Positions 5,434 through 30,572 of a stretch of DNA of 64,000 nucleotides are shown piece by piece. Source of the stretch: an uncultured Bacteroidia bacterium (GTDB lineage Bacteria > Bacteroidota > Bacteroidia > Bacteroidales > UBA932). The notes beneath the pieces are model-generated. The model ran no database searches. It had not been told where the DNA came from and was given only the letters and a program-made list of their open reading frames with translations. Positions within the stretch are counted from its first letter, which is position 1, and the number at the start of each line of letters is the position of its first letter. The DNA lies in assembly GCA_902780935.1 (NCBI GenBank), contig CACZHP010000005.1, forward strand, positions 48,822 to 112,821. The letters run 5' to 3'. The translations under genes were made by a program, and so were the position numbers.

Positions 5434-5449
5434 GTTTTCCGTACCGGCC

Positions 5450-5581
5450 GGGCAAGGTCTAACTAGTATAGGTGCAAAAATTAACTTGATGCCCTCGACC
5501 TTGCCCACCTATTCGGTCCCTGGAGGACCTCAGAGCCCACCTTCCCGGGCATGGTCCCCACCCTAAAATTAGACCTTGCCC
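5450..5581. repeat. 13-bp perfect inverted repeat around a gene remnant
   Basis: GGGCAAGGTCTAA at 5450-5462 is matched by its exact reverse complement at 5569-5581. A third partial copy (GACCTTGCCC) lies at about 5498-5507. The right copy contains the stop codon of the truncated HAD fragment. No transposase is present. It may mark the edge of an old insertion or deletion. Confidence 0.5.
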
Positions 5582-5790: not shown

Positions 5791-5799
5791 CAAAGAGTT

Positions 5800-13940: not shown

Positions 13941-14336
13941 CTACCTCTCTAGAACTTCCCAGAACCTGGAAGGAAGTGTAATGTTGTTGATTGTTACGGC
14001 CGCTTTGAATAGAGGAGCTATCTCATCTGGAGTGAACCCCGCTATGCCGCAGCCAATCTCTGTCACGAGGAACCTCTTTTCAGGGTGGTTCTTGGCATAT
14101 TCGATGAACTCATCAACGTAAGGCGCGATGGTCTCGACCCCGCCCTGCATCGTGGGGATCGCGTAGCTCTGTCCTTGCATGCCCACTCCTTGGCCCCAGA
14201 CGGCACCGAAAAACATGTGCGCGGCAGCCGCGGCACCGCCCCCGTGGGCCCCGGCCAAGTTACTGCCGAAGACAAAAACCTCGTCAGATTTGAGGTTAGT
14301 AATGAAATCATCCGTTATTCTATTCTTGTCATCCAT
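13941..14336 (-). CDS. A1S_2505-like protein, copy 2
   Basis: A 131-residue paralogue of the gene at 7774-8175, with the same core NEVFVFGSNLAGAHGGGAA...GQGVGMQGQSYAIPT...VTEIGCGIAGF. About 120 bases in the middle (14080-14200) differ from copy 1 at only a handful of positions, whereas the ends of the gene are clearly more diverged. It converges with the DUF4143 ATPase gene. The function is unknown; the conserved Gly-rich loops suggest a nucleotide-binding role. Confidence 0.75.
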   Translation of the reverse strand: MDDKNRITDDFITNLKSDEVFVFGSNLAGAHGGGAAAAAHMFFGAVWGQGVGMQGQSYAIPTMQGGVETIAPYVDEFIEYAKNHPEKRFLVTEIGCGIAGFTPDEIAPLFKAAVTINNITLPSRFWEVLER

Positions 14337-15581: not shown

Positions 15582-16151
15582 TCACGCGTTAAGCCAGTCC
15601 GTGTATCCCCGAAGCCTGTCCTGGTCTTTCCATGTCTTGTCCCCATCATAATGTTGGATGGTATATTCAGTTTTCTCGCTCACAAAACTCGCCCACTTCT
15701 TCCACTCCCCTGTGTGACACAGTCCTCCAGGCACGGTGTGGATGAGCTCGTGGATCAGGGTGTTGCGCAGGGATTTCTCGGAATTCCCAAGTGTGTGACC
15801 TGAAATCTCGATGTAATAGTCGTATTGGTCATACTTCTTGCGGCTGCCTTTAGCGCAACATCTTCCATAATGGCTTCTGGATCCGGTCAGAACCACTTCG
15901 GGGCATATATCTTTTGAGATAGGAACACCTAGCCCGTTCATCAGATCTATGCACTCCGCCAGCATCCGGTTGATTCTCGTGTCCGTTCCCGGTCCTTGCC
16001 AGCGGGATAGACGGTTCCCGTATTTCTCCTGAAGCCTCAGCAGTTCCGGATAATGGTCGGCTGAGCTTCCGGCGAACAGTTGTTTATCGAGCAGTATCGG
16101 CAAGACAAGCAGCAAGGCCAATACTGACAGCAATAGTATTTTGACAATCAT
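15582..16151 (-). CDS. SprT-like zinc metalloprotease, membrane-anchored
   Basis: A 189-residue protein with an N-terminal membrane segment (ILLLSVLALLLVLPILL, about 4-20) and a SprT-like domain. The zinc motif is TLIHELIHT (HExxH, about 131-135), with a third ligand probably in GLCHTGEWKKWA (about 143-154). SprT/Spartan relatives cleave DNA-bound or folded proteins; this one appears anchored with the catalytic domain outside the membrane or facing the periplasm. It is the last gene of the leftward cluster that starts with the E1/E2/JAMM genes. Confidence 0.8.
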   Translation of the reverse strand: MIVKILLLSVLALLLVLPILLDKQLFAGSSADHYPELLRLQEKYGNRLSRWQGPGTDTRINRMLAECIDLMNGLGVPISKDICPEVVLTGSRSHYGRCCAKGSRKKYDQYDYYIEISGHTLGNSEKSLRNTLIHELIHTVPGGLCHTGEWKKWASFVSEKTEYTIQHYDGDKTWKDQDRLRGYTDWLNA

Positions 16152-16179
16152 ATTATTTACTTCTTGTTAGTCTTCATTC

Positions 16180-17202
16180 TTACCGCATCAGGAACGGATA
16201 CCTGTCCGTGCCGTCGAGGGCGAGGCAGGTGCCGCGGGCGACGGCCTTGAGGGGGTCATCGGCCACATGGAAAGGTATATTCACCTTGTCAGAGAACCTC
16301 TTGGCGATTCCCCTCAGCAGGGAACCCCCGCCGGCCAGCCAGATGCCGCTCTGCGCTATGTTGGAATACAGCTCCGGTGGAACCCGCTGGAGAACCTTGA
16401 TGATCTCGCTCTCGATCTTCGAGATGGTCTTGTCAATGCAGGCGCAGATCTCCTTGTAACTGATGGAGGCTTGCGCCGGATGGGCCGTGACCATATTCCT
16501 GGCCACGACCACATAGTCCTCCGGTTCTTCATCCTCAGGAAGTTCCATCAGCACCGAGCCGACAGCGTACTTGATATCCTCACCGGTCGTGCGGCCGATA
16601 CTGACGCTGTGCTGCTGGGCCAGGTAGTCGATGATGTCGGTCGTGATCTCATTCCCGGCCACGTGAATACTGGAAGACTCTACGATACCACCGAGGGAGA
16701 TGACGGCGATCTCCGTTGTCCCGCCGCCTATGTCAACCACCATGCTGCCCTTCGGCACCATCACGTCCAGGCCGATCCCCATCGCCGACGCCATAGGCTC
16801 ATAGATCATGAACACGTCGTGGGCGCCGGCGTGGGAGGCAGAGTCACGGATGGATCTCATATCAACGGGCGTGCTGCCGCCAGGAATGCCGATAACGATC
16901 TTCAGGGCTGGTTTGAATATGCCCTTACGGCCTCCCGTCGCCTTCTTGATAAAGCCCGTAAGCATCTTCTCGGCCGCGTCATAGTCGGCTATCACCCCGT
17001 TCATCAGGGGACGGACAGTGTAGATCCTCGGAGGCGTCAGTTCCTCCATCTGCTGAGCCTCCGTTCCTATCGCCACAAGTTTGTCCGTCTTGGACTCAAG
17101 CGCTATTATGCTGGGCTCGTCAAGGACGACCTCGCCGTCCTTGAATATCACCGTGTTGGCCGTGCCCAGGTCTATCGCCAACTCCTGAGTGAAGAATGCC
17201 AT
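16180..17202 (-). CDS. mreB: MreB-like bacterial actin
   Basis: A 340-residue actin-fold ATPase. Phosphate 1 is IDLGTANTVIF (about 10-20), phosphate 2 is VVDIGGGTTEIAVISLGG (about 158-175) and the adenosine motif is WLAGGGSLLRGI (about 294-305). MreB forms filaments that guide cell-wall synthesis. This copy is not accompanied by mreC, mreD or other elongasome genes. It starts one base after the vWA gene ends, inside a cluster of ubiquitin-like and protease genes, so it may be a specialised paralogue. Confidence 0.88.
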   Translation of the reverse strand: MAFFTQELAIDLGTANTVIFKDGEVVLDEPSIIALESKTDKLVAIGTEAQQMEELTPPRIYTVRPLMNGVIADYDAAEKMLTGFIKKATGGRKGIFKPALKIVIGIPGGSTPVDMRSIRDSASHAGAHDVFMIYEPMASAMGIGLDVMVPKGSMVVDIGGGTTEIAVISLGGIVESSSIHVAGNEITTDIIDYLAQQHSVSIGRTTGEDIKYAVGSVLMELPEDEEPEDYVVVARNMVTAHPAQASISYKEICACIDKTISKIESEIIKVLQRVPPELYSNIAQSGIWLAGGGSLLRGIAKRFSDKVNIPFHVADDPLKAVARGTCLALDGTDRYPFLMR

Positions 17203-17203
17203 A

Positions 17204-17878
17204 TCACTTCGTTCTCTTTTCTTCCTCAGTGAAGAACTCCTCCACTGAATTGTCCATTTTTCTGGAGATCCTGCTGTAGAGCCTCTTGCTTGCGGACCTG
17301 TGTTTCATCCACATTGCTCTTGTTCCCTCCTCGTCGGCGTCGAAGTCCATAGAGTCATAGATGCCCAGGTCTTTGGACACCTCCACGGAGTCCTGGTTGG
17401 CGCCGATATAGACGAACGTCCAGCCTTTCTCACGCAAGCGGTCTACCATGGCTTTCACGGCCGCCCTGGAGTATTCCCTGGACGCGTTCTCGAAGCCGTC
17501 GGTGATGACCGTCACAAGGACAGGCTCACCTTCTTTCACCTTGCGTTCGAGAGCCGTGATGGAGATGCCCATCGCGTCATAAAGAGGCGTGCAGGAGTCC
17601 GGACGATAGTCCTCATTCGTCAGGTCGCGGACCTCCGCGATCGGGACATCGTCGAATACGGTCTTAACCCATTGGCCGGTAGTGTTGAACGTCACGAAGG
17701 TGAACCGGTGATCCTGGTCGGGATGCTCCCTCTCCGACGCCCTGATCGTCTGGATGGTCTCATTGGCACCGCCAAGGGCAGCATTGTAAATCGCCTGCAT
17801 CGATCCGCTCTCGTCAAGGATCATAAGGTTGTGGACTGTTGTCCTCTTAGTCACTTTCTCGTTGATATTCTGTTCCAT
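17204..17878 (-). CDS. von Willebrand factor A domain protein
   Basis: A 224-residue single-domain vWA protein. The metal-ion-dependent adhesion site is complete: DESGSM (about 23-28), the Thr in SCTPLYDA (about 95-102) and the Asp in TVITDGFENA (about 124-133). There is no signal peptide, so it is cytoplasmic and probably acts as a scaffold with an ATPase, as vWA-MoxR and TerY-type proteins do. The likely ATPase partner in this cluster is the ClpB-type protein. It is followed one base later by the MreB-like gene. Confidence 0.88.
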   Translation of the reverse strand: MEQNINEKVTKRTTVHNLMILDESGSMQAIYNAALGGANETIQTIRASEREHPDQDHRFTFVTFNTTGQWVKTVFDDVPIAEVRDLTNEDYRPDSCTPLYDAMGISITALERKVKEGEPVLVTVITDGFENASREYSRAAVKAMVDRLREKGWTFVYIGANQDSVEVSKDLGIYDSMDFDADEEGTRAMWMKHRSASKRLYSRISRKMDNSVEEFFTEEEKRTK

Positions 17879-17932
17879 GATGTGTTTTATTTTGTTGGTT
17901 AATGATGGTTTACATGTATAATAGGCGCGGCC

Positions 17933-17973
17933 GGGCCCGCCAACCGCCTTTCACGCCTCACGGCGGCGGGCCC
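17933..17973. repeat. 9-bp GC-rich inverted repeat between membrane-protein and vWA genes
   Basis: GGGCCCGCC at 17933-17941 pairs with GGCGGGCCC at 17965-17973. It lies just downstream of the stop at 17991 (minus strand) and 55 bases before the vWA start. There is no T run, so it is more likely an RNA-processing or attenuating stem than a standard terminator. Confidence 0.5.
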
Positions 17974-17990
17974 TCTATTCCGCGCGGTAA

Positions 17991-18662
17991 TTACGACACG
18001 ATCTTGCCCTCCCGGTTACTGACAGCCTCGATCGGGATGCCGTTGGCCTCAAGTTTGGAAATATCCTCCCTGTCGTTGAGCATCTGGTTGTAAGTCTCGC
18101 CGAACATGTTCTCAAGATCGTTGATTATGCTGACATACTCGTTGAAAACATCCCTGAAATGGCCGTACTTGGGTTCGATTGCGCTGACAAAGAAGCAAAG
18201 GACCCCGCCATCGTCCGAGACCGACACCTTGCCAATCAGTCTGGCGTCGGTCGTCTTGGCAGCGGCCTGACGCAATAGCACGATGTCATATTTCTCCTTA
18301 TCAATACTGAATCGCTTCATGACAAGGAGATAAGGGAGTCTGTCGGTTGGGACAACATATCTCTCGCCTTGAACCATAAAGAACACGGCATCTTCCTTCT
18401 TGTCAGGGACATAACCGTTGTACTTCACCACATCGGCGACCAGGTCGGGAGTCAGGTCCCAGAGATCCTGGTCGTCAACCCGGCCCTGGGTCACCGGGCT
18501 TGACGAGACAACGGGTGTGTATGCCGTTTCCTCAAGGCTGCGGATCCGCTCTTTCTGAGACTTTATCTCCTCACGGTACTCATGTGTGGAACCCCGCTCA
18601 TCAATGAAGAGGGCGATGAAGATGATCGCCACGGTCACTGTTATTATCAATGCTGTTATCAT
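17991..18662 (-). CDS. Membrane-anchored hypothetical protein
   Basis: A 223-residue protein with an N-terminal membrane helix (ITALIITVTVAIIFIALFI, residues 2-20), a short coiled coil (YREEIKSQKERIRSLEE, about 29-45) and a soluble domain of about 150 residues with mixed strands and helices. The soluble domain has no motif I recognise. It is encoded between the TPR/retropepsin-like gene and the vWA gene on the same strand, so it may tether components of the cluster to the inner membrane. Confidence 0.65.
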   Translation of the reverse strand: MITALIITVTVAIIFIALFIDERGSTHEYREEIKSQKERIRSLEETAYTPVVSSSPVTQGRVDDQDLWDLTPDLVADVVKYNGYVPDKKEDAVFFMVQGERYVVPTDRLPYLLVMKRFSIDKEKYDIVLLRQAAAKTTDARLIGKVSVSDDGGVLCFFVSAIEPKYGHFRDVFNEYVSIINDLENMFGETYNQMLNDREDISKLEANGIPIEAVSNREGKIVS

Positions 18663-18819
18663 GTTAGTAATGCGAGAAATGTGTTAATGTGATTGTGGTT
18701 GCCGCCCTCCGTTGAGAGTCGGCGAACGCTTATACGGGAAAACCTCAGTAAATGTTTCAACCAGCCTCTGAAACGTCTGTGGAACCATTGGCCCACCTTT
18801 TGAAAGCGGCCGCCACTCC

Positions 18820-20910
18820 CTAACGCTTTATGATTATCTTGTTGTTGGCGTTGTCGATGGTGATGGTCCCGAAACGCTCCATGGCGCTCTGGCCAAGAAG
18901 GAGCGGTGCCTTCTGGCTGCCGACCACAGAGGCGTCGACATTATGCAGCACGGCATCACCGATCTTGACCTCACGAAGAGTGATGACCGTACCCTCGCTG
19001 ATCTGGCCGTTGGCTGTCTGGTAATATTTCTTACCCTTGATGTCACGGTTGGAAAGGTAGCCGTTCTTCAGCATGAAGCTGGCCTCCACGGAGGAGATGG
19101 TCACGTCGGACGCCCCGGTGTCGAAGATCATCTGGAGCGGAAGCCCGTTGATGTCGCACGGGATCTCGAAAGTGCCGCCTGAATGTCGCTTTACCGCCAC
19201 CTCCGTCGTTATTGGCTCATGCTCTTTAACCGCCTCGGCTCCGTTGAACCCGTTATCCTCCAGGTATTTCTGATGAATCGTCTTATATTCAGCTACAAGT
19301 TCCTTGAACTCCGGGAGATCCCTGACCGGATCCATGTCGTCGTCCATGCCGATGTGGGCGAAACTCCGGTACCCCTTCCCGAAGGCGGTCCTGAGGGCGG
19401 CGACAGACTCCTCCAGCCGGCCCATCCGGGAGTACAGGCATGCGCGGTCGTAATAGTGCCCGGCGTCTGCGGGGTCAGTGGCGATGATCCTGTCCATCCA
19501 CTCCTCGGCCTCCTTGTCCTTCCCGAGGAAGTGAAGGGCGTAATGGCGGCAACTTCCGTCACGTACCACCGTGTCCAGTTTGACCACGGCCTCAAAGTCC
19601 TTCCTGGCCTCGGCCTCTTTGCCCTCAATGAGGAGCAACTCGCCACGCATCAAATGAAGGTAGGGATATTTGTCATTCAGCTCGATGCCGGTGTCATAGT
19701 CCTCAAGCGCCCCTCTCCGGTCGCCCGCCATCTCCTTGCACCAGCCCCTGCGGTAGTAGCAGAAGGCCTCTTTCGGAGACTCCTCGATCGCGTCGGTGAA
19801 GTCATTAATGGCCGACTCAAGGTCACCGGAGAGACGGTGGTAGTCTCCGAGCATGCACAGGGAATACATGTCACTCTCCCTCTCGATCGCCTTGGTGATG
19901 TCGGCTATCGCCTTGTCGTAGAGCCCGAGCTCCTTGTAGCAGTCGCTACGGTAATAGAATATCTCCCCGACCTGGCCGTATCCCGCCTCCATCTCGTCAT
20001 AGACCCGGACAGCGTCGGCGTATTTATGCGTATGGGATAGGAACTCGGCCAGGAGAGCCTTCCACGGGAAAGGGTCGTCCACGCTCTTCACCTTATCCTT
20101 GATAGCCGCCTCGGCGTAGGCCGGGCGCTTGGCGCAGACGGCCAGCACGGAGTCCGACTGGGCGTTAGTGTCCTTGTCGAGCCACTCCAGGCCGGCGTCG
20201 ATCGCCTTCGAGGTCTCGCCCAGCTTGTCGAAAGCGTACATCTTGAAGCGGTAAGGCTCGGCGTATTCCCTGTCAAGCTTCTGGCATTTGTCCAGGAGAT
20301 CCAGCGCCTCGCGGTACTCGCGGCGGTCCACCCTCGTCCTGGCCAGGCCTACCATGGCACCCACGTCGGCCTCGTTCTCGGACAGCATGTGCCTGTAAAC
20401 CGCTTCAGCGCCGTCAAGGTTCTTGTTCAGATAAAGCGCCTGGGCATAGTCGAAGGATATGCTTTGGAGGTTCTCCTTGTTGTCCTTCTGTGCCAGGGCG
20501 TATGCCGTCCCCAGTGACTCCGCCGCCTTCGGGCGGTCACCCATGTCACTGTAAAGGTGGCCTTTCCACCAGTGGAGCGTGGAGTTGGCGATCTCGGACT
20601 TCTTGGGCTTGTTGACCTTTAGGGCGTGGTTGACGTCCGCCATCGCGTCGCCGTAAGCCCCCTTGCGGCGGTAAAGGCGGACACGGAGCAGAAGGGCCTG
20701 GACATTGTCCGGGGTCTCCTGGAGCTGCTTGTCCACAAGGTCGAGCGCCTTGGCATCGTCCTTCTCCTGGTCAAGGGCCTCCCAGGCCCGCTGGAGGTTG
20801 TAGTCGTTACCGGCTTTGCCGGCGCCGGTCTTGGCGGTTCCCTGGGCGAACGCCTGGCCGCAGGTCAGGGTCAGCAGAAGCGCTGACAGGATGGTAAAAA
20901 TTCTTCTCAT
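18820..20910 (-). CDS. Secreted TPR protein with C-terminal retropepsin-like domain
   Basis: A 696-residue exported protein. Residues 1-22 form a signal peptide ending FAQG. About 35-540 is a long run of tetratricopeptide repeats, for example AICYYRRGWCKEMAGDRRGA-like helix pairs at 370-430. The last 120 residues are a retropepsin-like aspartyl protease: MIFDTGASDVTISS (catalytic DTG, about 598), YYQTANGQISEGT and LLLGQSAMERFG. The DTG suggests an active dimeric protease, presumably in the periplasm. TPR repeats usually bind proteins, so it may recruit or cut partners. It is encoded in the same leftward block as the Clp and vWA genes. Confidence 0.88.
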   Translation of the reverse strand: MRRIFTILSALLLTLTCGQAFAQGTAKTGAGKAGNDYNLQRAWEALDQEKDDAKALDLVDKQLQETPDNVQALLLRVRLYRRKGAYGDAMADVNHALKVNKPKKSEIANSTLHWWKGHLYSDMGDRPKAAESLGTAYALAQKDNKENLQSISFDYAQALYLNKNLDGAEAVYRHMLSENEADVGAMVGLARTRVDRREYREALDLLDKCQKLDREYAEPYRFKMYAFDKLGETSKAIDAGLEWLDKDTNAQSDSVLAVCAKRPAYAEAAIKDKVKSVDDPFPWKALLAEFLSHTHKYADAVRVYDEMEAGYGQVGEIFYYRSDCYKELGLYDKAIADITKAIERESDMYSLCMLGDYHRLSGDLESAINDFTDAIEESPKEAFCYYRRGWCKEMAGDRRGALEDYDTGIELNDKYPYLHLMRGELLLIEGKEAEARKDFEAVVKLDTVVRDGSCRHYALHFLGKDKEAEEWMDRIIATDPADAGHYYDRACLYSRMGRLEESVAALRTAFGKGYRSFAHIGMDDDMDPVRDLPEFKELVAEYKTIHQKYLEDNGFNGAEAVKEHEPITTEVAVKRHSGGTFEIPCDINGLPLQMIFDTGASDVTISSVEASFMLKNGYLSNRDIKGKKYYQTANGQISEGTVITLREVKIGDAVLHNVDASVVGSQKAPLLLGQSAMERFGTITIDNANNKIIIKR

Positions 20911-20975
20911 TGCGTGAAAGTGTTTGTGATGTTTTCTATAGTTAATGTCAGTTTTGGGGAAAGGTAACCACCTTC

Positions 20976-21146
20976 CTATTTGATAAGCTTACCCACGGTC
21001 TTCACGAGGGTGCGGCCGATCTTGCGCTCGAGCCCCTGCTTGGTCAAGGGGATCCCTGTCGCCCTTGCGATGCTTCTCTTGATGACGTCGACACCGAGGG
21101 CCCTTCTGGGCGAGAACGATGTCCCTGGAATTCCGAAAATCTTCAT
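20976..21146 (-). CDS. Small basic 56-residue protein
   Basis: A short gene beginning MKIFGIPGTSFSPRRALGVD and continuing through SIARATGIPLTKQGLERKIG to a TAG at 20976-20978. It is strongly basic, with no membrane segment. The phrase TGIPLTKQGxxRKIG reminds me of small phage or plasmid-borne proteins, but I cannot name a family. It lies 41 bases after the ClpB-type gene and 65 bases before the TPR gene on the same strand. It could be an adaptor or substrate for the unfoldase. Confidence 0.6.
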   Translation of the reverse strand: MKIFGIPGTSFSPRRALGVDVIKRSIARATGIPLTKQGLERKIGRTLVKTVGKLIK

Positions 21147-21187
21147 GGTTGTGTTGTGTTTGGTTGTTGACGCGAAAATAGTCCCGT

Positions 21188-23704
21188 TCAGCGAACTGTT
21201 TCTTCGTCAGAATTAATGAACGAAAAATCCCCATCCTCCGCCGAGACACGTATCGGCGCGTCCCTCCTCAAGGAGCCGTCAATGAATCCCGTGGCGAGCG
21301 GGTTGATGATGTGGTCGTTGATCGCCCTCTTTACCGGGCGGGCCCCGTAGCGGGGGTCATATCCCTTCCCGGCCAGAAGATCCAGGGCCGCCTCGTCAAA
21401 GGACACCGCGGTACCCTCGGCAGAGAGCTTGTGGGACAGGGACTCCAGCTGAAGGGCGCAGATTCTCCGCACAGCGTCCATGCCCAGGGGGGCGAAGGCC
21501 ACGATGTCATCGATCCTGTTGATGAACTCCGGGGCGAGGCGGGACCGCAGCTCCTCCTCACGGATATTGGATGTCATGATGACGATCGTGTTGCGGAAGT
21601 TGACGGTCCGTCCTTGCCCGTCAGTCATCCGGCCGTCGTCAAGGACCTGGAGAAGTGTCTCGAACACCTTGGGATGCGCCTTCTCGATCTCATCCAGAAG
21701 GACCACCGAGTAGGGCCTGCGACGTACGGCCTCGGTCAACTGTCCGCCCTGGTCGTAACCCACATAGCCGGGAGGGGCACCGAAGAGGCGTGACACCGAG
21801 TGTTCCTGCTGGTACTCGCTCATGTCGATCCGCACGAGCATGTCACGGCTGTTGAAGAGGTAGTCCGCCAACGTCTTGGCCAGCTCCGTCTTCCCGACAC
21901 CCGTCGGGCCCATGAAGAGGAACGACCCGACCGGCCGGCCGGCGTCCCCAAGCCCCACCTTGTTGCGCCTGATCACCTTCGACACGGCGGCGACAGCCTC
22001 CTCCTGGCCGATCACCGAGCGGGAAAGGGTATTCTCGAGGCCGGCGAGTTTCTCGGACTCGTCCTCCCTCAGGCGGCTCACAGGGATGCCGGTCCAGGCC
22101 GTCACCACCCCCCGGATATCGTCGTCGTCAAGGCTGTCCTTCAGGAGGGTCGGCTCGGCTCCCTCTGTCGCGGAGGCGATCTCATCCCGGAGAGCTGACA
22201 TCCTGTCCCTCAGCGAGACCGCCTCCTCGTAACGGCCAGCCTCCTCGGCCTCCCGGCTCCTAGATCTCAGTCCCTCAATCTCATCACGCAGACGCTGGAG
22301 CGACTCCATCCGCTCGCGCTCGTTACTCCAGCGGGCATTCAGGGCGTTCTCCCTCTCCCGCAGGTTGTCGATCTCCCTATCCAGTTCCGAGAGGTCATGG
22401 TCCATCTCATCCTGGCGCAGGGACTCCCGCTCCATCTCCCTGGAGCGGATCTGCCTCGACAGCTCGTCCAGCTCCACCGGCACCGAGGAACGCTCCATCC
22501 TCATCCTTGAGGCGGCCTCGTCAAGAAGGTCGATCGCCTTGTCGGGGAGATACCTTCCCGAGACATACCGGGAAGACAGCCGGACGGCGGAGACGATAGC
22601 CTCGTCCAGGATCCGTATGCGGTGGAACGACTCGAACCGGCCCTTGATCCCCCGCATGATCGTTATCGCCGTCTCCTCGTCAGGCTCGTCGACGACAACC
22701 TTCTGGAACCGCCTCTCGAACGCCTTGTCGCTCTCGATGTACTTGGTGTACTCCTCGTCGGTCGTCGCCCCGATCACACGGATCTCCGAACGGGAAAGCT
22801 CGGGCTTGAGAATATTCGCCGCGTCCATCGACCCCCCGCCGCGACCGGTGCCGATAAGAAGGTGCATCTCGTCGATGAAGAGGACGATGTCCGGATCCTC
22901 CCTCACATCCCTCATGACCTTCTTCAGCCTGTCCTCGAACTCTCCCTGCATCCCGGCTCCTGCCATCAGCGAGGGCACGTCCAGGGCGTAAAGCTTGGTT
23001 CCCCGGAGATCCTGCGGCACGTCCCCGCGGACCAGCCTCTGGGCCAGGCCCTCCACTATGGCCGTCTTGCCGGTTCCGGGAGGGCCGACGAGCACGGGGT
23101 TGTTCTTGGTCTTCCTCGAGAGGATCTGCAGCACCCGGCGGGTCTCGTCATCACGTCCTATAACAGGCTCAAGGTTTCCCTCGCTGGCCAGGAGCGTGAG
23201 ATTCCGGGCGTACTTCTTCAGGTGGCGGGGCACGCGGCCCTCACCATCAGCGGCTTCCTGCCTGGAGATGTTTCCCTCGCGGAACAGGCGCACTGCCTCC
23301 GCCACCCCATCCTCGGTCACCCCCACGCGGCGCATCAGCTCGCGGGCCTCTCCGGGAACCACGGCCATCGCCCAGAAGACATGCTCGAGAGCGACGTTGG
23401 AGCTGCCGCTGCCGACGGCAAGGGAGAGGGCCTTCCCGAAAACAGTCTCAAGGTCACGGGAGAGAGGCACGGACCTCGGTTCCTCGTATCCCGGAAGCGG
23501 CAGGGAGGAGTTGATGTAATCCCTGAATGCCCTTGGGTTGATCTCCATCCTCTGAAGGAGGAAGGACACCATGTCCGCACCCTCGTCGAGGATGGCGGCG
23601 AGCATCACGGTAGGGGTTATTTCCGGATAGCGGCTCTCCTTGGCTATGGAGAAAGCGCGGGTCACCGCCCGGCGGGTATTCTCTGTGAATTTTGAATAGT
23701 CCAT
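21188..23704 (-). CDS. ClpB-type AAA+ unfoldase/disaggregase
   Basis: An 838-residue Hsp100 protein with an N-terminal Clp repeat domain (about 1-140), AAA module 1 (Walker A GPPGTGKT about 207; Walker B VLFIDEMH), a long coiled-coil middle domain (about 400-525, as in ClpB) and AAA module 2 (Walker A GPTGVGKTELAK; Walker B VVLLDEIEKAHP). There is no obvious ClpP-binding loop, so it should unfold or disaggregate rather than feed ClpP. I chose the ATG at 23704 (MDYSKFT), the usual Clp start; a longer frame adds 11 residues. The position beside E1, E2 and JAMM genes suggests a role in handling modified proteins. Confidence 0.92.
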   Translation of the reverse strand: MDYSKFTENTRRAVTRAFSIAKESRYPEITPTVMLAAILDEGADMVSFLLQRMEINPRAFRDYINSSLPLPGYEEPRSVPLSRDLETVFGKALSLAVGSGSSNVALEHVFWAMAVVPGEARELMRRVGVTEDGVAEAVRLFREGNISRQEAADGEGRVPRHLKKYARNLTLLASEGNLEPVIGRDDETRRVLQILSRKTKNNPVLVGPPGTGKTAIVEGLAQRLVRGDVPQDLRGTKLYALDVPSLMAGAGMQGEFEDRLKKVMRDVREDPDIVLFIDEMHLLIGTGRGGGSMDAANILKPELSRSEIRVIGATTDEEYTKYIESDKAFERRFQKVVVDEPDEETAITIMRGIKGRFESFHRIRILDEAIVSAVRLSSRYVSGRYLPDKAIDLLDEAASRMRMERSSVPVELDELSRQIRSREMERESLRQDEMDHDLSELDREIDNLRERENALNARWSNERERMESLQRLRDEIEGLRSRSREAEEAGRYEEAVSLRDRMSALRDEIASATEGAEPTLLKDSLDDDDIRGVVTAWTGIPVSRLREDESEKLAGLENTLSRSVIGQEEAVAAVSKVIRRNKVGLGDAGRPVGSFLFMGPTGVGKTELAKTLADYLFNSRDMLVRIDMSEYQQEHSVSRLFGAPPGYVGYDQGGQLTEAVRRRPYSVVLLDEIEKAHPKVFETLLQVLDDGRMTDGQGRTVNFRNTIVIMTSNIREEELRSRLAPEFINRIDDIVAFAPLGMDAVRRICALQLESLSHKLSAEGTAVSFDEAALDLLAGKGYDPRYGARPVKRAINDHIINPLATGFIDGSLRRDAPIRVSAEDGDFSFINSDEETVR

Positions 23705-23714
23705 ATTATCATTA

Positions 23715-23975
23715 TTAACTGCCGCACAGCGCCGCAAGGACGCTCACGGCCGCGTAGACGGCGATGTAAGCGAGGACCTTGACCAGGCCTTGGAAGAAGC
23801 CTCCCGACTCTCCGGAATTAGCCCCCGACCTTGGCGGAGGTGGGGTGGTGCGGGTATAGTACGGCCTTGAGGAGGTCTGCCTCGGTTGGGGTGACGGTCT
23901 TGGTGACGGTCTCGGCCGGCTCATCTCGGGGACATCCTCGAACTCCCCGGTGCGCTCGTTATAGACGTAAGGCAT
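23715..23975 (-). CDS. Small proline-rich tail-anchored protein
   Basis: An 86-residue protein with three parts: an N-terminal MPYVYNERTGEFEDVPE, a Pro/Arg/Ser-rich linker (about 20-58) and a C-terminal membrane helix (LVKVLAYIAVYAAVSVLAAL, about 64-83). Its ATG overlaps the TAA of the E1-like gene (TAATG), a coupling signal. The N-terminal TGxFxxV phrase also occurs near the start of the E1-like protein (DPVTGDFRQV). It does not look like a ubiquitin-like beta-grasp domain. It may be a membrane anchor for the pathway. Confidence 0.65.
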   Translation of the reverse strand: MPYVYNERTGEFEDVPEMSRPRPSPRPSPQPRQTSSRPYYTRTTPPPPRSGANSGESGGFFQGLVKVLAYIAVYAAVSVLAALCGS

Positions 23976-25435
23976 TATCCGAGATCGATATTGATGTCCT
24001 CAAGACCGGTGACAGAAGGCTCACCTTCTCCCCCGATATTCACCTCTCCGCAGACAGGGCACTCCATGTCCCTCTCGATCCTCGCCCCGTACCAGCGGAG
24101 GATGGTGGGCATGCCCCCGGCCTCTGGCATGGGCTTCCAGTTGGAGAACCTCTTCTCGCGGCGGTTAGCCCAGATGTAATAGTCATAGACCAGCTCCTTC
24201 TCAAGGCAGGATATCCCCGACTCCCGGCCCCTTGAGAGCTCGAGGAGCGAGAGCTTGACCATCATGTCGCAGATGGGGGCAATGTCCGATGACAGTCCCA
24301 CCTGCACCATGGCGTCTGCGTCCTCGGGCGAGACGTAGGCGGCTATCCGACCGTCCCTGCGGGCAGAAGCCTCATCTGTGATCTCCTCCTGTTGGAGATT
24401 TCCACCACCGACAAGACAGCAGTAGCATGGGCCTCCAGGACGCTGGATGAGGACATCACCACCCTCAGCCCTGGTAAACGCCCTACCGTAGATACCAACC
24501 TTCCCGGCATAAGCTATGGCGGCGGAAAGATTGTAACGACTGGAGTTGTTGTCCGTGGCACAGATCACCAGGTCGGCCTTGGCCACCTCGTCACTGAGGA
24601 TATGGACATCCTCGTTGATATTCACTGGGAACTTGTCTACCCGTGCGTAAGGGTTCTTGCCGAGAATGGCCTCCTCGATGACATTCGTCTTAAGGCGTCC
24701 GAGGTCACGGACCGAGGCGATGTGGCGGGAAAGGTTGTGGATCTCGACACGGTCGAAATCCATCAGGGCGAAGCTCCCCACACCGGCCTGCGCCAGCTCG
24801 ACGGCTATCCTGGAGCCGAAACTGCCGAGTCCGACTATCATGACCCGCTTGTCCTTAAGGACCCCGACCTCAAGTATCCCCTTGGATCTGGAGAAGAGGT
24901 TCTCCTCCGAGGGGATAAGATAGAGGTCGGCCTCGCACCAGATGTTCCTCTTCTCCTCCTTCGAGAGCGCCGAGACGAAGGCTCTGGGCTTCTCTCCAGA
25001 ATGGAGTACGCAGACGCCCTTCCAATCATCCCCGAAGGGTATCTTTGGCAGCCTGTCTTCTAAGCTCATGTAGCAGCCGATCTCATCGTCGGTCACCAGA
25101 CGGCTGGCGGAGTCAGGGTTTACGTGGAAGACACCCTTCTCGATCTCGGCGGCCGGGAGGCGTATCCTCCTCTTCCGCTGAAGCTGCCCCACCGCACCGT
25201 TGAGATCGTCCTCCCTTATGACGACTATCGCCTTGGGGTTCTCCTCACCGGCGGCGAAGCCCTTGTCGGTCATCTCGGTCACCACGTCGCCGTCACCGTG
25301 GCTAGCGCCCCTCTCCACCTGCCGGAAATCTCCTGTAACCGGGTCGAAGACAAGATCCTTCATAGTGCTGCCCTGATTGAGTCCCTGCTCGCGGACATCA
25401 CGGGCCAATTCGTTAAGTTGCTGTTCGTTGCTCAT
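23975..25435 (-). CDS. ThiF-family E1-like adenylating enzyme
   Basis: A 486-residue protein with an extra N-terminal region of about 190 residues and a C-terminal ThiF/MoeB/E1 domain. The nucleotide loop is VGLGSFGS (201-208), followed by the ATP-binding signature DFDRVEIHNLSR (226-237) and ATDNNSSR (293-300). Two Cys pairs, CYCC (337-340) and CPVC (459-462), match the zinc site of the family. Such enzymes adenylate the C-terminal Gly of a ubiquitin-like protein. It lies 13 bases downstream of the E2-like gene. Its N-terminal region is not one I recognise. No CD-NTase gene is nearby, so this is not a CBASS locus. Confidence 0.9.
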   Translation of the reverse strand: MSNEQQLNELARDVREQGLNQGSTMKDLVFDPVTGDFRQVERGASHGDGDVVTEMTDKGFAAGEENPKAIVVIREDDLNGAVGQLQRKRRIRLPAAEIEKGVFHVNPDSASRLVTDDEIGCYMSLEDRLPKIPFGDDWKGVCVLHSGEKPRAFVSALSKEEKRNIWCEADLYLIPSEENLFSRSKGILEVGVLKDKRVMIVGLGSFGSRIAVELAQAGVGSFALMDFDRVEIHNLSRHIASVRDLGRLKTNVIEEAILGKNPYARVDKFPVNINEDVHILSDEVAKADLVICATDNNSSRYNLSAAIAYAGKVGIYGRAFTRAEGGDVLIQRPGGPCYCCLVGGGNLQQEEITDEASARRDGRIAAYVSPEDADAMVQVGLSSDIAPICDMMVKLSLLELSRGRESGISCLEKELVYDYYIWANRREKRFSNWKPMPEAGGMPTILRWYGARIERDMECPVCGEVNIGGEGEPSVTGLEDINIDLG

Positions 25436-25448
25436 TGTACTATATGTG

Positions 25449-25883
25449 TTAGATTTGATGTGTCAGGTAATAGTCTATCGGGTTGCCGGTACGCAGGTGA
25501 GCCTCGTACATCTCAAGCCAGAGCCTGCACTTCACGTACACCTTGTAAAGGGAAACGGCCGGAGTCCACGACTGTGGGCCGTAGTGGCAGATCCGTGTCC
25601 ATCCGCGCTCCGATCCCAGGGTATGCATCGAGCAACTCGCCGAGGCGAGGCTGTTCCCATCCCGGTCTTTCAGCATCCGGGTGACGAAGACAGCCGGGGG
25701 CATGAAAGGAAAGCCGGTGAGGCTTATATGAAGAGTATAGACATTCCCGCTGTTGGTCTTTGCCCCTATGCGCAGGTAACGCTCGCCCGTGGCCCCGTCC
25801 TCCATGTTGAAGAACCTGAAGGCGTTTGTCGGGAACTTGCCGCTGAGCAGTTTGAGCTCAGCCTGGTATCTCGCTTTTTCCAT
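25449..25883 (-). CDS. E2-like ubiquitin-conjugating (UBC-fold) protein
   Basis: A 144-residue protein matching the UBC fold in motif order: a strand pair (YTLHISLTGFPFMPPAVFV, with the classic FPFxPP turn at 58-63), a His-containing segment (SMHTLG, 85-90), then TRICHYGPQSWTPAVSL (97-112), where Cys99 corresponds to the E2 catalytic Cys and WTP to the conserved WxP. I chose the ATG at 25883, 7 bases after the JAMM stop; a longer frame would run into the JAMM gene. E2 enzymes accept a ubiquitin-like protein from E1. The HPN tripeptide of eukaryotic E2s is replaced. Confidence 0.8.
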   Translation of the reverse strand: MEKARYQAELKLLSGKFPTNAFRFFNMEDGATGERYLRIGAKTNSGNVYTLHISLTGFPFMPPAVFVTRMLKDRDGNSLASASCSMHTLGSERGWTRICHYGPQSWTPAVSLYKVYVKCRLWLEMYEAHLRTGNPIDYYLTHQI

Positions 25884-25890
25884 AATAATG

Positions 25891-26886
25891 TTACAGGTTT
25901 TTGTAAAATGTCTTGAATGATGAAAGTATATCTTCGGAGCCATTATCCCAGATCGCATCAGCATAATCCGGGGTTGTGGTCAAGTCCTTGTATATACTGA
26001 TGAAGGATGGACACTTCTCCGGGAAACCCACCGGGAAGGTTATCACCTCACGCTTGTCCTTCGAGTGTATGATGTCAATCCTGACCTCGCCTCGCTCGTT
26101 CAGCGACGGCCGCACCACATTGTCTGGGTTCCGCTCTTTGAGGAACGCCAGTATCCCGTTAAGTATCTGGCCGCTTCCCTCACGCAGCATCCAGTAGCCC
26201 GGAGCGTAGGCCGGCCTCAAGCTCCCGTCCCGGTCTCCGCCAAGTGACGCCGCGGAGGTCTCCGGATGGATCAGTATACCCGCCAGATCCCTGTCTATGA
26301 CCGGACGCACCGGGCTGTCCGTACGGATCACCTCCCAGGGTGTCTGGTCACACCCGATCCCGTCGCAGAGGAACGCCTTTACCTTGGCGGATGAGGCGTC
26401 ACAGTTGCCTATGCACAGGATGAACTCCCCGAGATCCTTCTCCCTGATGGTGGAGTTCATGGTGCGCGCGTCATGGACGCTCGGCCAGGCGAGGCCCAAC
26501 TGGTGATGGGAGTGCCACTCGCCGATGTGGTGCAGCCCGTAGCGCCTTTTGAGCTCACGGCCGACGGTTACCAGGTAATCGACATCCTGGTTGAAGAACG
26601 TCTTCTGGTGGTTCGCCTTGGGTCCGGGGCCGATGGCGTAAAGGACGACAGGGATGCCGCTATCCGTCCAATGTCCGAATAGCTGCCCGCCGGTCTCTAT
26701 GTCGGGACGGTCCAGGATACAACGGGAGAGGTAGTCAAGTTCGGAACGGTAGATGACCACCTGGGTTGTGCCAGTCCTCAACTCCAACGGCTTCGCTGAA
26801 AGGCTCTTCCTTGTCTCTTGAATATGTGCGAGCCTCGACTTGCGGGCCGCAGCCAGACGTCTCTGTCTCTTGATGCATTTTTTCAT
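25891..26886 (-). CDS. JAMM/JAB metallopeptidase with C-terminal UBC/RWD-like region
   Basis: A 331-residue protein. After a basic N-terminus, residues about 42-190 form a JAB domain: the catalytic Glu is in ETGGQLFG (64-71) and the zinc motif is EWHSHHQLGLAWPSVHD (123-139; H125, H127, D139). JAMM enzymes cleave ubiquitin-like proteins from targets or mature their precursors. Residues about 240-331 contain RIDIIHSKDKREVITFPVGF and PSFISI, which resemble the central strands and FP turn of a UBC/RWD fold without the catalytic Cys; this is inference. It is encoded just before the E2-like gene, as in Bil and other prokaryotic ubiquitin-like operons. Confidence 0.87.
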   Translation of the reverse strand: MKKCIKRQRRLAAARKSRLAHIQETRKSLSAKPLELRTGTTQVVIYRSELDYLSRCILDRPDIETGGQLFGHWTDSGIPVVLYAIGPGPKANHQKTFFNQDVDYLVTVGRELKRRYGLHHIGEWHSHHQLGLAWPSVHDARTMNSTIREKDLGEFILCIGNCDASSAKVKAFLCDGIGCDQTPWEVIRTDSPVRPVIDRDLAGILIHPETSAASLGGDRDGSLRPAYAPGYWMLREGSGQILNGILAFLKERNPDNVVRPSLNERGEVRIDIIHSKDKREVITFPVGFPEKCPSFISIYKDLTTTPDYADAIWDNGSEDILSSFKTFYKNL

Positions 26887-26935
26887 CTTCGCGTTTCTTT
26901 ACTTATTTTATGTCGTAAAACGGGAATTGTAACCA

Positions 26936-27601
26936 CTATTTCTTGTTAACTATCCGTCCGGTCCTGGTGGGCGGCATGTCCTCAAGACGCGAAACTACTG
27001 CGCTGTCGCGAACTGAAGGTTCGCTTTCGCGGATCGCCCACTTGATCACAGTCCGGGGAAGCCCGGTATCATCCAGGGGTATCCCGTCAATTCGCCTTGG
27101 CGGTTTCATGAACCAGTAATCAGGCCGGTGCCTTATCCTGACACATTCCCCAGGGCCTATCACAATCTTCTCATCAGGCTTCCTGTAATATTTAGGGTGA
27201 GTGTGGTCATTGGCGTACTCTATTGGATAGATGAGGAAAGTCTTGTCCGTGTTGTTGGCAAGATACCTGCGGAATGGCCTGATGTCCTTCCCGTACAGCG
27301 GGAAGACATCCTTGAGGGGTGTCACGAGATCAGGTGTCCCGTAGACCTTATACTCCGAGAGCCGGTGAATAGCCAGACCATCCGGATCATACAGCTCAAC
27401 GACCGTGACTCTGGATGCCGACACGGCGACGACCAGGAATGCGAGACCGTCGGCAAGAAGGCCGGCGAGAAGACACAAGGGACGGGTTTGGAAGGCGGAT
27501 ACCGCCTCTCCCCGGCCTCTATGGTATCTGCCTATAATAAGGCTCGCCTCGAACGCGGCGAAAAGAAGGATGATAAGGTATAGTGAACGAGAGATGATCA
27601 T
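26936..27601 (-). CDS. Two-helix membrane protein of unknown function
   Basis: A 221-residue protein with two membrane segments (about 5-24, and about 42-62 with LLAGLLADGLAFLVVAVS) and a soluble C-terminal domain of about 150 residues (VELYDPDGLAIHRLSEY to the end). It is probably an inner-membrane protein with a folded domain on one side. No family was recognised. It is the first gene of the leftward E1/E2/JAMM cluster, 49 bases upstream of the JAMM gene, so it may be the membrane component of that system. Confidence 0.65.
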   Translation of the reverse strand: MIISRSLYLIILLFAAFEASLIIGRYHRGRGEAVSAFQTRPLCLLAGLLADGLAFLVVAVSASRVTVVELYDPDGLAIHRLSEYKVYGTPDLVTPLKDVFPLYGKDIRPFRRYLANNTDKTFLIYPIEYANDHTHPKYYRKPDEKIVIGPGECVRIRHRPDYWFMKPPRRIDGIPLDDTGLPRTVIKWAIRESEPSVRDSAVVSRLEDMPPTRTGRIVNKK

Positions 27602-27779: not shown

Positions 27780-27895
27780 GACATTTTGTTTATCTTTGCA
27801 TAGAGTATAGGTACATTATTTCCATGAGATTGATGCTTTTTTCGTCATTTTTTACTTTTAATAGCCTAAGAATCAATCAAATGAATAAAGTTGCC
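27780..27895 (+). promoter_or_regulatory. CRISPR array 1 leader
   Basis: AT-rich sequence directly before the first repeat. It shares TTGTTTATCTTT, AGAG.ATAGGT and a later TTTTT-rich stretch with the sequence before array 2 (39300-39422). It contains TATCTTTG at 27791-27798, a good -7 box for transcription into the array. Confidence 0.7.
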
Positions 27896-28582
27896 CTCAA
27901 AGACCATCTTCCTCTAAAACAAGGATTAAGACCGCAAGCTCTTTTCCTATCATAATACACTTCGAATTCTCAAAGACCATCTTCCTCTAAAACAAGGATT
28001 AAGACAGCTTCTCGATGTCTTCCGCCGTGGCTTCGTCGCGGGCTCAAAGACCATCTTCCTCTAAAACAAGGATTAAGACGAAATCTTATCTATAAGTTTG
28101 CAACTTTCACCGAACTCAAAGACCATCTTCCTCTAAAACAAGGATTAAGACCCGCCAAAGGGTGTCCTCATAAAGAGAGACGCTGAAAACTCAAAGACCA
28201 TCTTCCTCTAAAACAAGGATTAAGACATATCAGTGTGCCTCAAATAAAATCGTGTCACCACTCAAAGACCATCTTCCTCTAAAACAAGGATTAAGACTGT
28301 TAACCGTGAACCACATAACTAAATGAACAACTCTCAAAGACCATCTTCCTCTAAAACAAGGATTAAGACCAATTATCTGCTAAATCTGCAATATAACAAT
28401 CATCTCAAAGACCATCTTCCTCTAAAACAAGGATTAAGACGACGATCCTTATATAGATCGAGAGATTACTCGGCTCAAAGACCATCTTCCTCTAAAACAA
28501 GGATTAAGACGCCGTTCTCGTTGACGGTAGGCCAATAGCCGATGCCTCAAAGACCATCTTCCTCTAAAACAAGGATCAAATC
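27896..28582 (+). CRISPR. CRISPR array 1: 10 repeats, 9 spacers
   Basis: Repeats are 37 bases, starting CTCAAAGACC and ending GGATTAAGAC, at 27896, 27969, 28043, 28115, 28190, 28261, 28333, 28404, 28474 and 28546. Spacers are 33-38 bases. The last repeat has a changed 3' end (after AAGGAT), which marks the leader-distal side, so the leader is on the left and the array reads rightward. The predicted 5' handle of crRNAs is ATTAAGAC. It lies next to the type III-A genes. Confidence 0.97.
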
Positions 28583-28623
28583 TTTATATATTTCGCCGCG
28601 AAACGAATGTTCGCAATCCGATG

Positions 28624-28654
28624 TTGCTAAAACAGTTAATATTGTTTATATTTG
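28624..28654 (+). promoter_or_regulatory. Promoter of the WYL regulator
   Basis: TTG at 28624-28626 and TATATTTG at 28647-28654 with 20 bases between. It overlaps the ATG at 28621, so that ATG would not be in the transcript; this supports the start at 28678. Confidence 0.7.
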
Positions 28655-28677
28655 ATGAGAGCAACTCAAATAACCAC

Positions 28678-29793
28678 ATGCCACAGAATAAAAACGCACT
28701 GGTACGTTACAAGATTCTTGATGAACTACTTTCAAATCCATCAAGAAGGTACACACGCAAGGACCTTTACAACATTGTACTCCAACGATTGAAAAGCATT
28801 GACGATGAAGCGACCCTGACAAAACGCACAATAGAGAAGGATCTTTACGATCTTCAAGACCGCCCTTTCGAAATGGAAATAATCGAGGAAGGAGGATATG
28901 GTGAAAAGTTCGTGCGCTACGCAGACCAATCCCAGTCTCTCTTCTCAAAACCACTTTCTGACGACGAGAAAGTCCTTCTGCGTGAAGTCCTAAACACCTT
29001 AGGGCAATTCGATGGATTGGACTCATTCGACTGGCTTCAAGCCCTTCAAGAGAGACTTAACGATCCCGACTCTCTTCTTGGATTTCCCCAAGGCTATCCA
29101 TCCGAACATGGGAAAATCATTTCCTTCAGCAAGAATCCTTACCTCAATAATTTGTCCGAAGAAGGGCCGAGGCCCATCGCCAACGCCCTATCAAGCCTTT
29201 TTTCCGCAATATCCAGTCAGACAACCGTCACTGTTGATTACAAGAAATTCAACGAGGATGAGATAAAGACATTCGTTGTATTCCCCTATCTTCTTAAGCA
29301 ATACAATGACAGATGGTATTTGATCTGCGCCCTTTTCAATGCCGATCCCAATTTCATAATGAACCTTCCTCTGGACAGGATGCTAAGAGTCGAGATGGTC
29401 CCTCAGATTCCTTTCCAGCCATGTGCCGTTGACCTCGAGGACAGGTTCTCACGAATCGTTGGGGTCACCTATCGCTATGACCGCGAGGAGATTCCTATAG
29501 TATTCGCCGTCTCAAATGATAAAGCCCCGTACATCAAGACAAAACCAATCCACGAGACACAACGAGAGTTCATCGAAACCGAGCAAAAAGAATGGAAACA
29601 ACGGTACCCGATGCTAGACAATTACCGGTTCTTCGAGATCGAATGCATTCCCAACAACGAGTTAATGAGCCTCTTCTTCTCCTTTGACAAAGATATCATA
29701 GTGATCAGCCCGAAGGAAATTCGGGATGAAATCACAGAGGAGCTTGACAAGCAGTTCAGCACTTATAAAAGAGTTTTTTTAAACGATGTATAA
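28678..29793 (+). CDS. WYL-domain transcriptional regulator of the CRISPR locus
   Basis: A 371-residue protein with an N-terminal winged helix (ALVRYKILDELLSNPSRRYT onward, about 8-80) and a WYL domain (about 180-270, with TVTVDYKKF and DRWYLICALFNAD). The WYL fold binds nucleic acids or nucleotides and often regulates defence systems. The start was set by the promoter: the ATG at 28621 falls within it. It lies between array 1 and cas6, so it probably controls cas expression, though its ligand is unknown. Confidence 0.85.
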   Translation: MPQNKNALVRYKILDELLSNPSRRYTRKDLYNIVLQRLKSIDDEATLTKRTIEKDLYDLQDRPFEMEIIEEGGYGEKFVRYADQSQSLFSKPLSDDEKVLLREVLNTLGQFDGLDSFDWLQALQERLNDPDSLLGFPQGYPSEHGKIISFSKNPYLNNLSEEGPRPIANALSSLFSAISSQTTVTVDYKKFNEDEIKTFVVFPYLLKQYNDRWYLICALFNADPNFIMNLPLDRMLRVEMVPQIPFQPCAVDLEDRFSRIVGVTYRYDREEIPIVFAVSNDKAPYIKTKPIHETQREFIETEQKEWKQRYPMLDNYRFFEIECIPNNELMSLFFSFDKDIIVISPKEIRDEITEELDKQFSTYKRVFLNDV

Positions 29794-29797
29794 GAAC

Positions 29798-29829
29798 TTG
29801 AACACTTCTTTTTTAATTATTCATATTTG
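29798..29829 (+). promoter_or_regulatory. Possible promoter of the cas6-csm operon
   Basis: TTG at 29798-29800 and CATATTTG at 29822-29829 (one mismatch to TAnnTTTG), 21 bases apart, 22 bases before the cas6 start. Confidence 0.4.
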
Positions 29830-29850
29830 TCGTATCACTTATAATAAGAA

Positions 29851-30549
29851 ATGGTGACTACCGAACGCCAGAAAATACTCACGATTATCTTCGAAAACGA
29901 GATTTCATATAATGAGGTTCCCTTATTCCGGGGGGCTGTTATACAAGCTACCGGATCAGAGACCTCGCATGTTCTTTTTCACAATCATCTTGGAGATGGA
30001 TTCAGATTCTCTTATCCGCTAATTCAGTACAAACGAATTCACGGCAAAGCCGCTATCGTATGCATAGGTGAAGGCACGGATATCATCGGAGACTTTTTTT
30101 CATCGGTCAGTCCCACGGTACAGTTGGGGGACAGGACCATTTCGTTGAGAATAGAAAAGAGTCTCGCTCAATCTGTTATCATCAAGGTATGGGACACATC
30201 TTTCAGATACTCCATCCGCAGATGGATGCCCCTGAATTCCCAGAACTATGCAAAGTATATGGAGTTTGAAGACCTGGTCGAAAAGATCGTATTTCTGGAA
30301 GGTATCCTCACCGGAAACATCCTGTCGATTGCCAAGGGACTCGGAGTGAATCTCATGGAACAGATTTCGGTACGGCTGACGCATCTGGATGACCCATACA
30401 TCATAACAGTCAAATCCGTCAAAATGATGACTTTCAACGCAGACTTCGTAACAAATGTATCGCTTCCGCAGTTCATCGGGCTGGGTAAGGATGCCAGCAT
30501 CGGCTTCGGGACCCTGTTCCGGGCGGACCGGAAAGACAATGAAAGATAA
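29851..30549 (+). CDS. cas6: CRISPR endoribonuclease Cas6
   Basis: A 232-residue RAMP protein of the Bacteroidota Cas6 type, which cuts the repeat RNA to make crRNAs. It has a ferredoxin-like N-terminal half (VPLFRGAVIQA onward), the middle segment SFRYSIRRWMPLNSQNY, and the C-terminal Gly-rich loop of the family (LPQFIGLGKDASIGFGTLF, about 205-223). Candidate general bases include His28 and His45 in the N-terminal part, but I cannot assign them. It is the first cas gene of the operon, 24 bases before cas10. Confidence 0.88.
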   Translation: MVTTERQKILTIIFENEISYNEVPLFRGAVIQATGSETSHVLFHNHLGDGFRFSYPLIQYKRIHGKAAIVCIGEGTDIIGDFFSSVSPTVQLGDRTISLRIEKSLAQSVIIKVWDTSFRYSIRRWMPLNSQNYAKYMEFEDLVEKIVFLEGILTGNILSIAKGLGVNLMEQISVRLTHLDDPYIITVKSVKMMTFNADFVTNVSLPQFIGLGKDASIGFGTLFRADRKDNER

Positions 30550-30572
30550 AACTAGTAAACGGACCAATTGAT

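Follow-up and report, generated by a model that had tools for sequence, protein, structure and literature searches.

A candidate protein-conjugation operon with E1, E2 and JAMM genes and a small conserved unit at the E1 N-terminus in an uncultured Bacteroidia bacterium

Results and Discussion

The stretch of DNA analyzed here (the window) comprises 64,000 nucleotides of contig CACZHP010000005.1 (positions 48,822–112,821; assembly GCA_902780935.1) from an uncultured Bacteroidia bacterium of the Bacteroidales lineage UBA932, which has relatives among the Bacteroidales of the rumen, and it contains an operon with genes of a JAMM metalloprotease, an E2-like enzyme, and an E1-like adenylating enzyme (in the following "the trio"; Table 1). 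This operon is best explained, tentatively and at somewhat less than even confidence, as a defence-associated protein-conjugation operon whose modifier may be a short peptide, designated X, which is located at the N-terminus of the E1 and is newly recognized here as a separate unit of this protein. An initial annotation of the window had proposed a conjugation module consisting of E1, E2, and JAMM, and this proposal was borne out by the presence of the three genes and the invariance of key residues in E2 and JAMM.

Conservation of the trio

By using the E1, E2, and JAMM of the window together with E2 profiles, 15 loci (the window counted) that contain all three genes were gathered, namely the window, L009–L013, L014, L015, L016, L023, L024, L036, L037, L038, and L043. 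L009–L013 are five contigs of metagenome-assembled genomes, two of which are of ruminant forestomach origin according to their titles; L036 is a plasmid of Bradyrhizobium barranii, and L038 is a viral contig whose record stops within E1. Locus L008, which has JAMM and E1 genes and no E2 match within 3.8 kb, was excluded, and neither L044, which is another plasmid record of that Bradyrhizobium strain, nor record L022, which is the same contig as L013, was counted twice. E1, E2, and JAMM are encoded by separate open reading frames (ORFs) in the window and in the loci read.

Residues Cys126 and His114 are invariant in all 13 aligned E2 sequences, and E64, H125, H127, S136, and D139 are invariant in all 14 aligned JAMM sequences. 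The initial annotation had made its proposal depend on whether the cysteine of the E2 and the residues of JAMM are conserved, and this part of it stood. The only cysteines kept throughout the E1 alignment form two pairs, C337/C340 (14 of 14) and C459/C462 (13 of 14, with the remaining sequence cut by a contig end), which look like sites of the zinc-binding type; a catalytic cysteine conserved across the aligned E1s was not found. Because no such cysteine is visible, a direct hand-over from E1 to E2 appears probable. The E2 belongs to the UBC/E2 superfamily according to a structure model of middling confidence, which displays the UBC fold with the active-site cysteine. Compared with sequences in the PDB, the E2 profile had a single weak match (FANCL; E value 0.5) and the JAMM profile a single match at the level of chance (E value 0.22), and the best matches of the E1 profile among solved structures were MoeB, ThiF, and MccB. 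A PADLOC model of the E2 in the cyclic-oligonucleotide-based anti-phage signaling system (CBASS) was matched by 8 of 13 E2s at E values ≤0.1. The three genes are real and, judged from their sequences, their products look active; these enzymes very likely conjugate some substrate.

The candidate modifier X

X has a length of approximately 60–61 residues. In 8 of the 15 loci (L010, L011, L012, L014, L015, L016, L037, and L043), it is encoded by a small ORF of its own that separates the E2 gene from the E1 gene. The ratio of nonsynonymous to synonymous substitution rates was 0.01–0.11 in six of seven pairwise comparisons (the seventh was saturated), which indicates that X is under purifying selection. 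A Gly-Phe pair followed by differing tails is found near the end of X in 11 of the 15 loci. The free X of L010–L012 has the C-terminus Gly-Phe-Ala, and its stop codon overlaps the start of E1. In L043, X forms a single ORF of two tandem units, each ending with KDGFA and the last one followed by three extra residues, beside two tandem copies of the E2 gene. A conserved terminal glycine or alanine was absent from the other cluster C-termini compared, which were those of the E1, the membrane peptide, the Clp protein, the 56-amino-acid protein, and the TPR protein. Among the scanned cluster proteins, no match to a family of ubiquitin-like proteins (Ubls) was obtained in Pfam, NCBIfam, or PADLOC, and no match to a cyclase, in agreement with the initial annotation, which had seen neither a Bil-type Ubl nor a cGAS/DncV-like nucleotidyltransferase (CD-NTase). 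It had also suggested a search for a beta-grasp modifier ending with glycine; the family scans of the cluster proteins yielded no such modifier, but a candidate is present in the form of X. Being small, constrained, sometimes free, once arranged in tandem, and equipped with an end that would suit an E1, X is the best candidate for the modifier.

A hairpin motif, roughly F/Y-N/D-x-x-T-G-E/D-F, is common to X and the gene directly following E1. A narrow form of this motif had seven matches in 284 chosen ORFs from 12 loci, all within X or the post-E1 gene. A loose form had 24 matches in 2305 six-frame ORFs of at least 40 amino acids (252,882 residues from 18 loci), 22 of which are located in X, the post-E1 gene, or an extra ORF between E2 and X in L011, and two elsewhere. 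These counts are a description and not a test, because the pattern was derived from these very sequences and the loci are related. Of the 13 loci whose post-E1 gene can be read, 9 carry the motif in this gene and L016, L024, L036, and L037 do not. In the five motif-bearing loci for which it was computed, the product has a hydrophobic stretch with Kyte-Doolittle values of 1.9–3.0. The post-E1 gene of L043 encodes a 308-amino-acid protein with no Pfam match. The motif is interpreted as a docking element, which could tie the machine to the membrane. The extra ORF of L011 (10450–10791; 113 amino acids) contains one hairpin motif and a second, looser copy identified by eye.

The ClpB-like unfoldase

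The initial annotation had joined a ClpB-type unfoldase to the trio. Such a gene is located next to the trio, on its downstream side, in the window, L009, L013, and L024, and the Clp proteins of these four loci form one clade (support 0.946, and 1.00 without L024) in a tree that includes ClpB and ClpC of six genomes. This clade of dedicated Clp proteins is separate from the housekeeping ClpB and ClpC. The claimed link holds for this clade, but Clp was rejected as a general partner of the trio with its 4 of 15 loci; in L016, L023, and L038 the record ends too early to judge. The window Clp scored 985.3 bits against the equivalog model TIGR03346 of housekeeping ClpB, below the cut-off of 1232.1 bits. 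The other ClpB of the same genome also remained under this cut-off (1114 bits), and the two ClpB proteins are separated by the tree. An IGF-type loop is absent from the compared Clp segment in the window, L009, and L013 and present in L024; since the former three lack it, a function as disaggregase is likelier than one as partner of ClpP. A search of 11 genomes detected the gene of the 56-amino-acid basic protein in three of them, always next to the dedicated Clp. A looser association was observed for the TPR-retropepsin gene and the gene of a 223-amino-acid protein, which as a pair are located downstream of the trio in L009 and L013; a second such pair lies on contig 54 of the own genome (L032, 2383–5119), an 8-kb contig with no trio.

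Genomic settings of the trio

The genes surrounding the trio differ between the loci. On the Bradyrhizobium plasmid (L036), a CD-NTase ORF without its N-terminal part (PADLOC Cyclase, E value 1.5e-72) lies downstream of the trio, and next to this ORF a Cap4-SAVED protein (E value 1.2e-243) and a TIR protein are encoded. This CD-NTase ORF has the C-terminus Gly-Ala, whereas the X of this locus lacks Gly-Phe. In L037, the genes after the trio are that of PtuA (E value 2.2e-66) and one that matches HNH and PtuB less strongly (E values 3.8e-8 and 4.5e-6), which together make up a Septu-like pair. The trio of L038 is located on a phage-like contig downstream of a serine recombinase and of terminase-like genes, the latter named by eye. 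Upstream of the trio in L009 (3531–8681) is the gene of a 1716-amino-acid DEAD helicase with a sub-threshold match to REase_MTES_1575, and in L024 an IetA-like ATPase is encoded downstream of Clp. L010–L012 have Sel1-type repeat proteins (one of which was scanned) as neighbors, which are not defence-specific, and ordinary chromosomal genes, as judged by eye, surround the trio in L014 and L015. The operon of the window itself is located beside type III CRISPR genes (see below). According to the initial annotation, neighbors that vary freely around the trio would argue against one joint system; they vary indeed, but largely among defence-type genes. This pattern of gene content suggests that the trio is an exchangeable tagging module often found in defence settings.

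In L038, an HTH domain is fused to JAMM (5448–6722), perhaps forming a protease-controlled regulator.

The trio is rare and scattered. It was detected in 5 of 393 genomes of an order-level sample (among them G103, which had no E2 match in the stretch examined), in 4 of 398 genomes of a family-level sample, and in 3 of 385 genomes of a phylum-level sample; in a class-level sample 3 of 395 genomes matched, one of them (G1089; E value 4e-4; three internal stops) being rejected as a chance match. The own genome is included in each of these figures, and the four draws overlap. Scans of viral contigs with the E1 profile, the JAMM profile, and the Bradyrhizobium E2 yielded no relative, a JAMM DNA pattern on viral contigs retrieved L038 again and nothing further, searches of phage records revealed no relative of the trio, and searches of plasmids revealed the two Bradyrhizobium records and no others.

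Proposed mechanism and alternative explanations

If X is the modifier, the E1 would adenylate the C-terminus of this short peptide and pass it, probably directly, to Cys126 of the E2, which would then attach X to target proteins. The JAMM protease would free X from its precursor, be it an E1 fusion, a tandem repeat, or a form with a short tail, and would also remove X from its targets. In the lineage of the window, the peptide encoded after E1 may tie the machine to the membrane via the hairpin motif common to X, and the dedicated ClpB-like unfoldase may act on X-modified proteins, possibly as part of an anti-phage response. A fuller version of this scheme, which is rather unlikely to hold in all its parts, is that a 60-residue peptide without ubiquitin fold, encoded as an E1 fusion, a tandem polyprotein, or a free peptide, is conjugated by E1, E2, and JAMM, that its targets are passed at the membrane to the dedicated Clp, that the module is swapped among CBASS, Septu-like, and Clp settings, and that the CD-NTase replaces the peptide in CBASS. 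If X indeed had this role, bacteria could carry out ubiquitin-like chemistry without the ubiquitin fold, and the conjugation of the CBASS cyclase would appear as an instance of a tagging module that is general and exchangeable. A link of bacterial E1-E2-JAMM chemistry with a Clp machine would then also exist, which might parallel the link of ubiquitin with Cdc48.

Several observations weigh against this explanation. X forms a fusion with the E1 in seven of the 15 loci (the window, L009, L013, L023, L024, L036, and L038), with barely any linker between X and the conserved E1 region in L023, and it lacks Gly-Phe in four (L014, L015, L036, and L038). The tandem arrangement in L043 occurs in one genome only and, because its units are identical at 47 of 51 residues, appears to be a recent duplication. 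The structure model covering X, which shows a helix and a hairpin and no beta-grasp, is poor (predicted local distance difference test score 52). Only four loci have the adjoining Clp, and the tree of the trio places L010–L012, which have no adjoining Clp, closer than L024 to the group of the window (support 0.989 and 0.801), so that Clp was either lost in L010–L012 or gained twice. The main rival, doubtful but of considerable weight, is a role of X in docking at the E1: as a subunit or adaptor, X would bind E2, JAMM, or the peptide at the membrane through its hairpin, and a different protein, perhaps encoded elsewhere, would serve as the true modifier or substrate. The frequent fusion to the E1, the non-uniform ends of X, and the recurrence of the hairpin motif in the post-E1 gene and the extra ORF of L011, as expected for a docking motif, are in line with this role, but the separate X genes, the Gly-Phe-Ala ends in L010–L012, and the tandem arrangement in L043 are reminiscent of precursors of a modifier, and no other compared cluster protein offers a kept C-terminal glycine or alanine. 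The proposal that X is the modifier lends itself to direct tests through X itself, the cysteine of the E2, and the residues of JAMM.

It is improbable that the trio is a stray ancillary module of type II CBASS that lost its CD-NTase and is now regulatory or kept by chance. Such an origin would account for the CBASS genes beside the Bradyrhizobium trio and for the E2s matching the CBASS model, but the enzyme residues are conserved in loci without an adjacent CD-NTase, SMODS (PF18144) was matched in 3 of 13 trio genomes and never on the contig of the trio, and the own genome had no match to SMODS or to PDLC00822, the model of the Bradyrhizobium cyclase, two models that do not cover all CD-NTases. 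A very small probability is assigned to a peptide modification of the MccB type, as in ribosomally synthesized and post-translationally modified peptides, or to sulfur transfer, with the short peptides as products or carriers. The structural matches of the E1 profile and the short peptides encoded in the operon would suit such a pathway; the UBC-type E2 with its invariant cysteine and histidine and the defence-type neighbors argue against it. A UBC-type E2 is not known to have a role in the MccB or ThiF pathways. Very unlikely, finally, is the joint system envisaged by the initial annotation, in which conjugation and Clp would act with vWA, actin, and SprT at a membrane or on a filament. The ORFs from 18820 down to 16151 do lie on the same strand with gaps of 157, 112, 1, and 28 bases, but none of the vWA, MreB-like, and SprT-like genes was matched in the syntenic relatives L009, whose contig ends 0.8 kb past the last shared gene, and L013, including the 18 kb beyond its 223-amino-acid gene. 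Moreover, vWA was found in one of five trio genomes searched, on a separate contig, where it is linked to ADP-ribose genes (see below).

Comparison with known conjugation systems

The window operon resembles type II CBASS in the chemistry of E1, E2, and JAMM, including the catalytic residues of the JAB/JAMM isopeptidase (kept in 14 of 14 sequences), and in that the Bradyrhizobium relative of the trio has a CD-NTase and Cap4. It differs in that E1 and E2, which are fused in Cap2, are separate genes here, and in the presence of X; moreover, a CD-NTase was seen neither among the scanned cluster proteins nor, with the two models named above, in the own genome. In CBASS, a protein without ubiquitin fold is conjugated via its C-terminal glycine or alanine (PMC10097602), which is a precedent for a modifier such as X, whose free form in L010–L012 ends with alanine. 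The bacterial ISG15-like (Bil) systems likewise encode E1, E2, and JAMM separately, but their E1 has a catalytic cysteine, whereas only the paired-cysteine sites are kept in the aligned E1s here. Neither the two ubiquitin-like domains of BilA nor the inactive adenylation domain and cysteine domain of BilD, as given in their description (PMC11354881), were seen in the window cluster. The types 6a–6e of Iyer have in common with the window operon that genes of E1, E2-like, and JAB proteins occur in operons that are mobile and scattered. In these types, the E1 is fused to JAB or to E2, or a beta-grasp Ubl accompanies a JAB that has an N-terminal domain of its own; no Clp or X-like peptide is listed for any type in section 14 of that survey (PMC1779556). 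The 6A-MBL system was rejected because the scores for NF058523 (the fused cap2_3 protein), 54.8 and 33.8 bits, stayed below its cut-off of 320, and PRTRC because its ThiF model scored 19 bits against 144.75. Tagging by the prokaryotic ubiquitin-like protein Pup is similar in that its modifier is short, lacks the ubiquitin fold, and leads to an unfoldase, and different in using a glutamine-synthetase-like ligase instead of E1, E2, and JAMM. A coupling to other AAA+ proteins has been described for Ubl systems whose Ubl is of the beta-grasp type (PMC7159879). By its gene content the window operon is thus distinct from CBASS, 6A-MBL, and the types 6a–6e, and differs from Bil as portrayed in PMC11354881, though it may work alike; it is read as a variant of CBASS/Bil-type conjugation. 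Searches of open-licence literature, judged by titles and abstract openings, brought up no description of this gene set, although an earlier one may exist.

Gene organization of the window

Table 1. Features of the candidate conjugation operon and its partner genes in the window.
Feature	Position	Strand	Remarks
JAMM metalloprotease	25891..26886	(-)	331 aa; PADLOC JAB, E value 1.2e-15
E2-like enzyme	25449..25883	(-)	Start at internal Met28 of a 171-aa ORF (25449-25964); UBC fold in model
E1-like adenylating enzyme	23975..25435	(-)	486 aa; X fused N-terminally; ThiF 106.9 bits, residues 193-345
X (E1 residues 1-61)	25253..25435	(-)	Candidate modifier or docking unit
86-aa tail-anchored peptide	23715..23975	(-)	Hairpin motif YNERTGEF; maximum Kyte-Doolittle value 2.22 (19 residues, from residue 67)
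ClpB-like unfoldase, dedicated	21188..23704	(-)	ATG internal to an 849-aa ORF beginning at 23737
56-aa basic protein	20976..21146	(-)	Accompanies the dedicated Clp
TPR + retropepsin-like protein	18820..20910	(-)	Looser partner; identity 62-63% in L009 and L013
223-aa membrane-like protein	17991..18662	(-)	Looser partner; follows TPR gene in L009, near TPR gene in L013 and L032

Promoter-like sites (15 versus 5.8 expected) and terminator-like sites (10 versus 8.5 expected) in the window were uninformative for the limits of the operon. Adjoining the operon is an array of 10 clustered regularly interspaced short palindromic repeats (CRISPR; 27895–28603), followed on the plus strand by genes of a WYL regulator, Cas6b, and Cas10/Csm1, which together (27895–32843) represent type III. 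For the first gene, whose product has 221 amino acids, no match was obtained in the relatives that were searched.

The vWA protein found on the separate contig of a trio genome (L025) is fused to a domain similar to the product of window positions 13941–14336, and is flanked by genes of an NrtR-type NUDIX protein and an ADP-ribosylglycohydrolase. The window protein in question has 131 amino acids, no Pfam match, and 68% identity to the C-terminal part of the L025 fusion; together with the vWA protein of the window it perhaps forms an ADP-ribose module. A DUF4143 ATPase encoded at 12787–13926 matches the PADLOC candidate PDC-S01.

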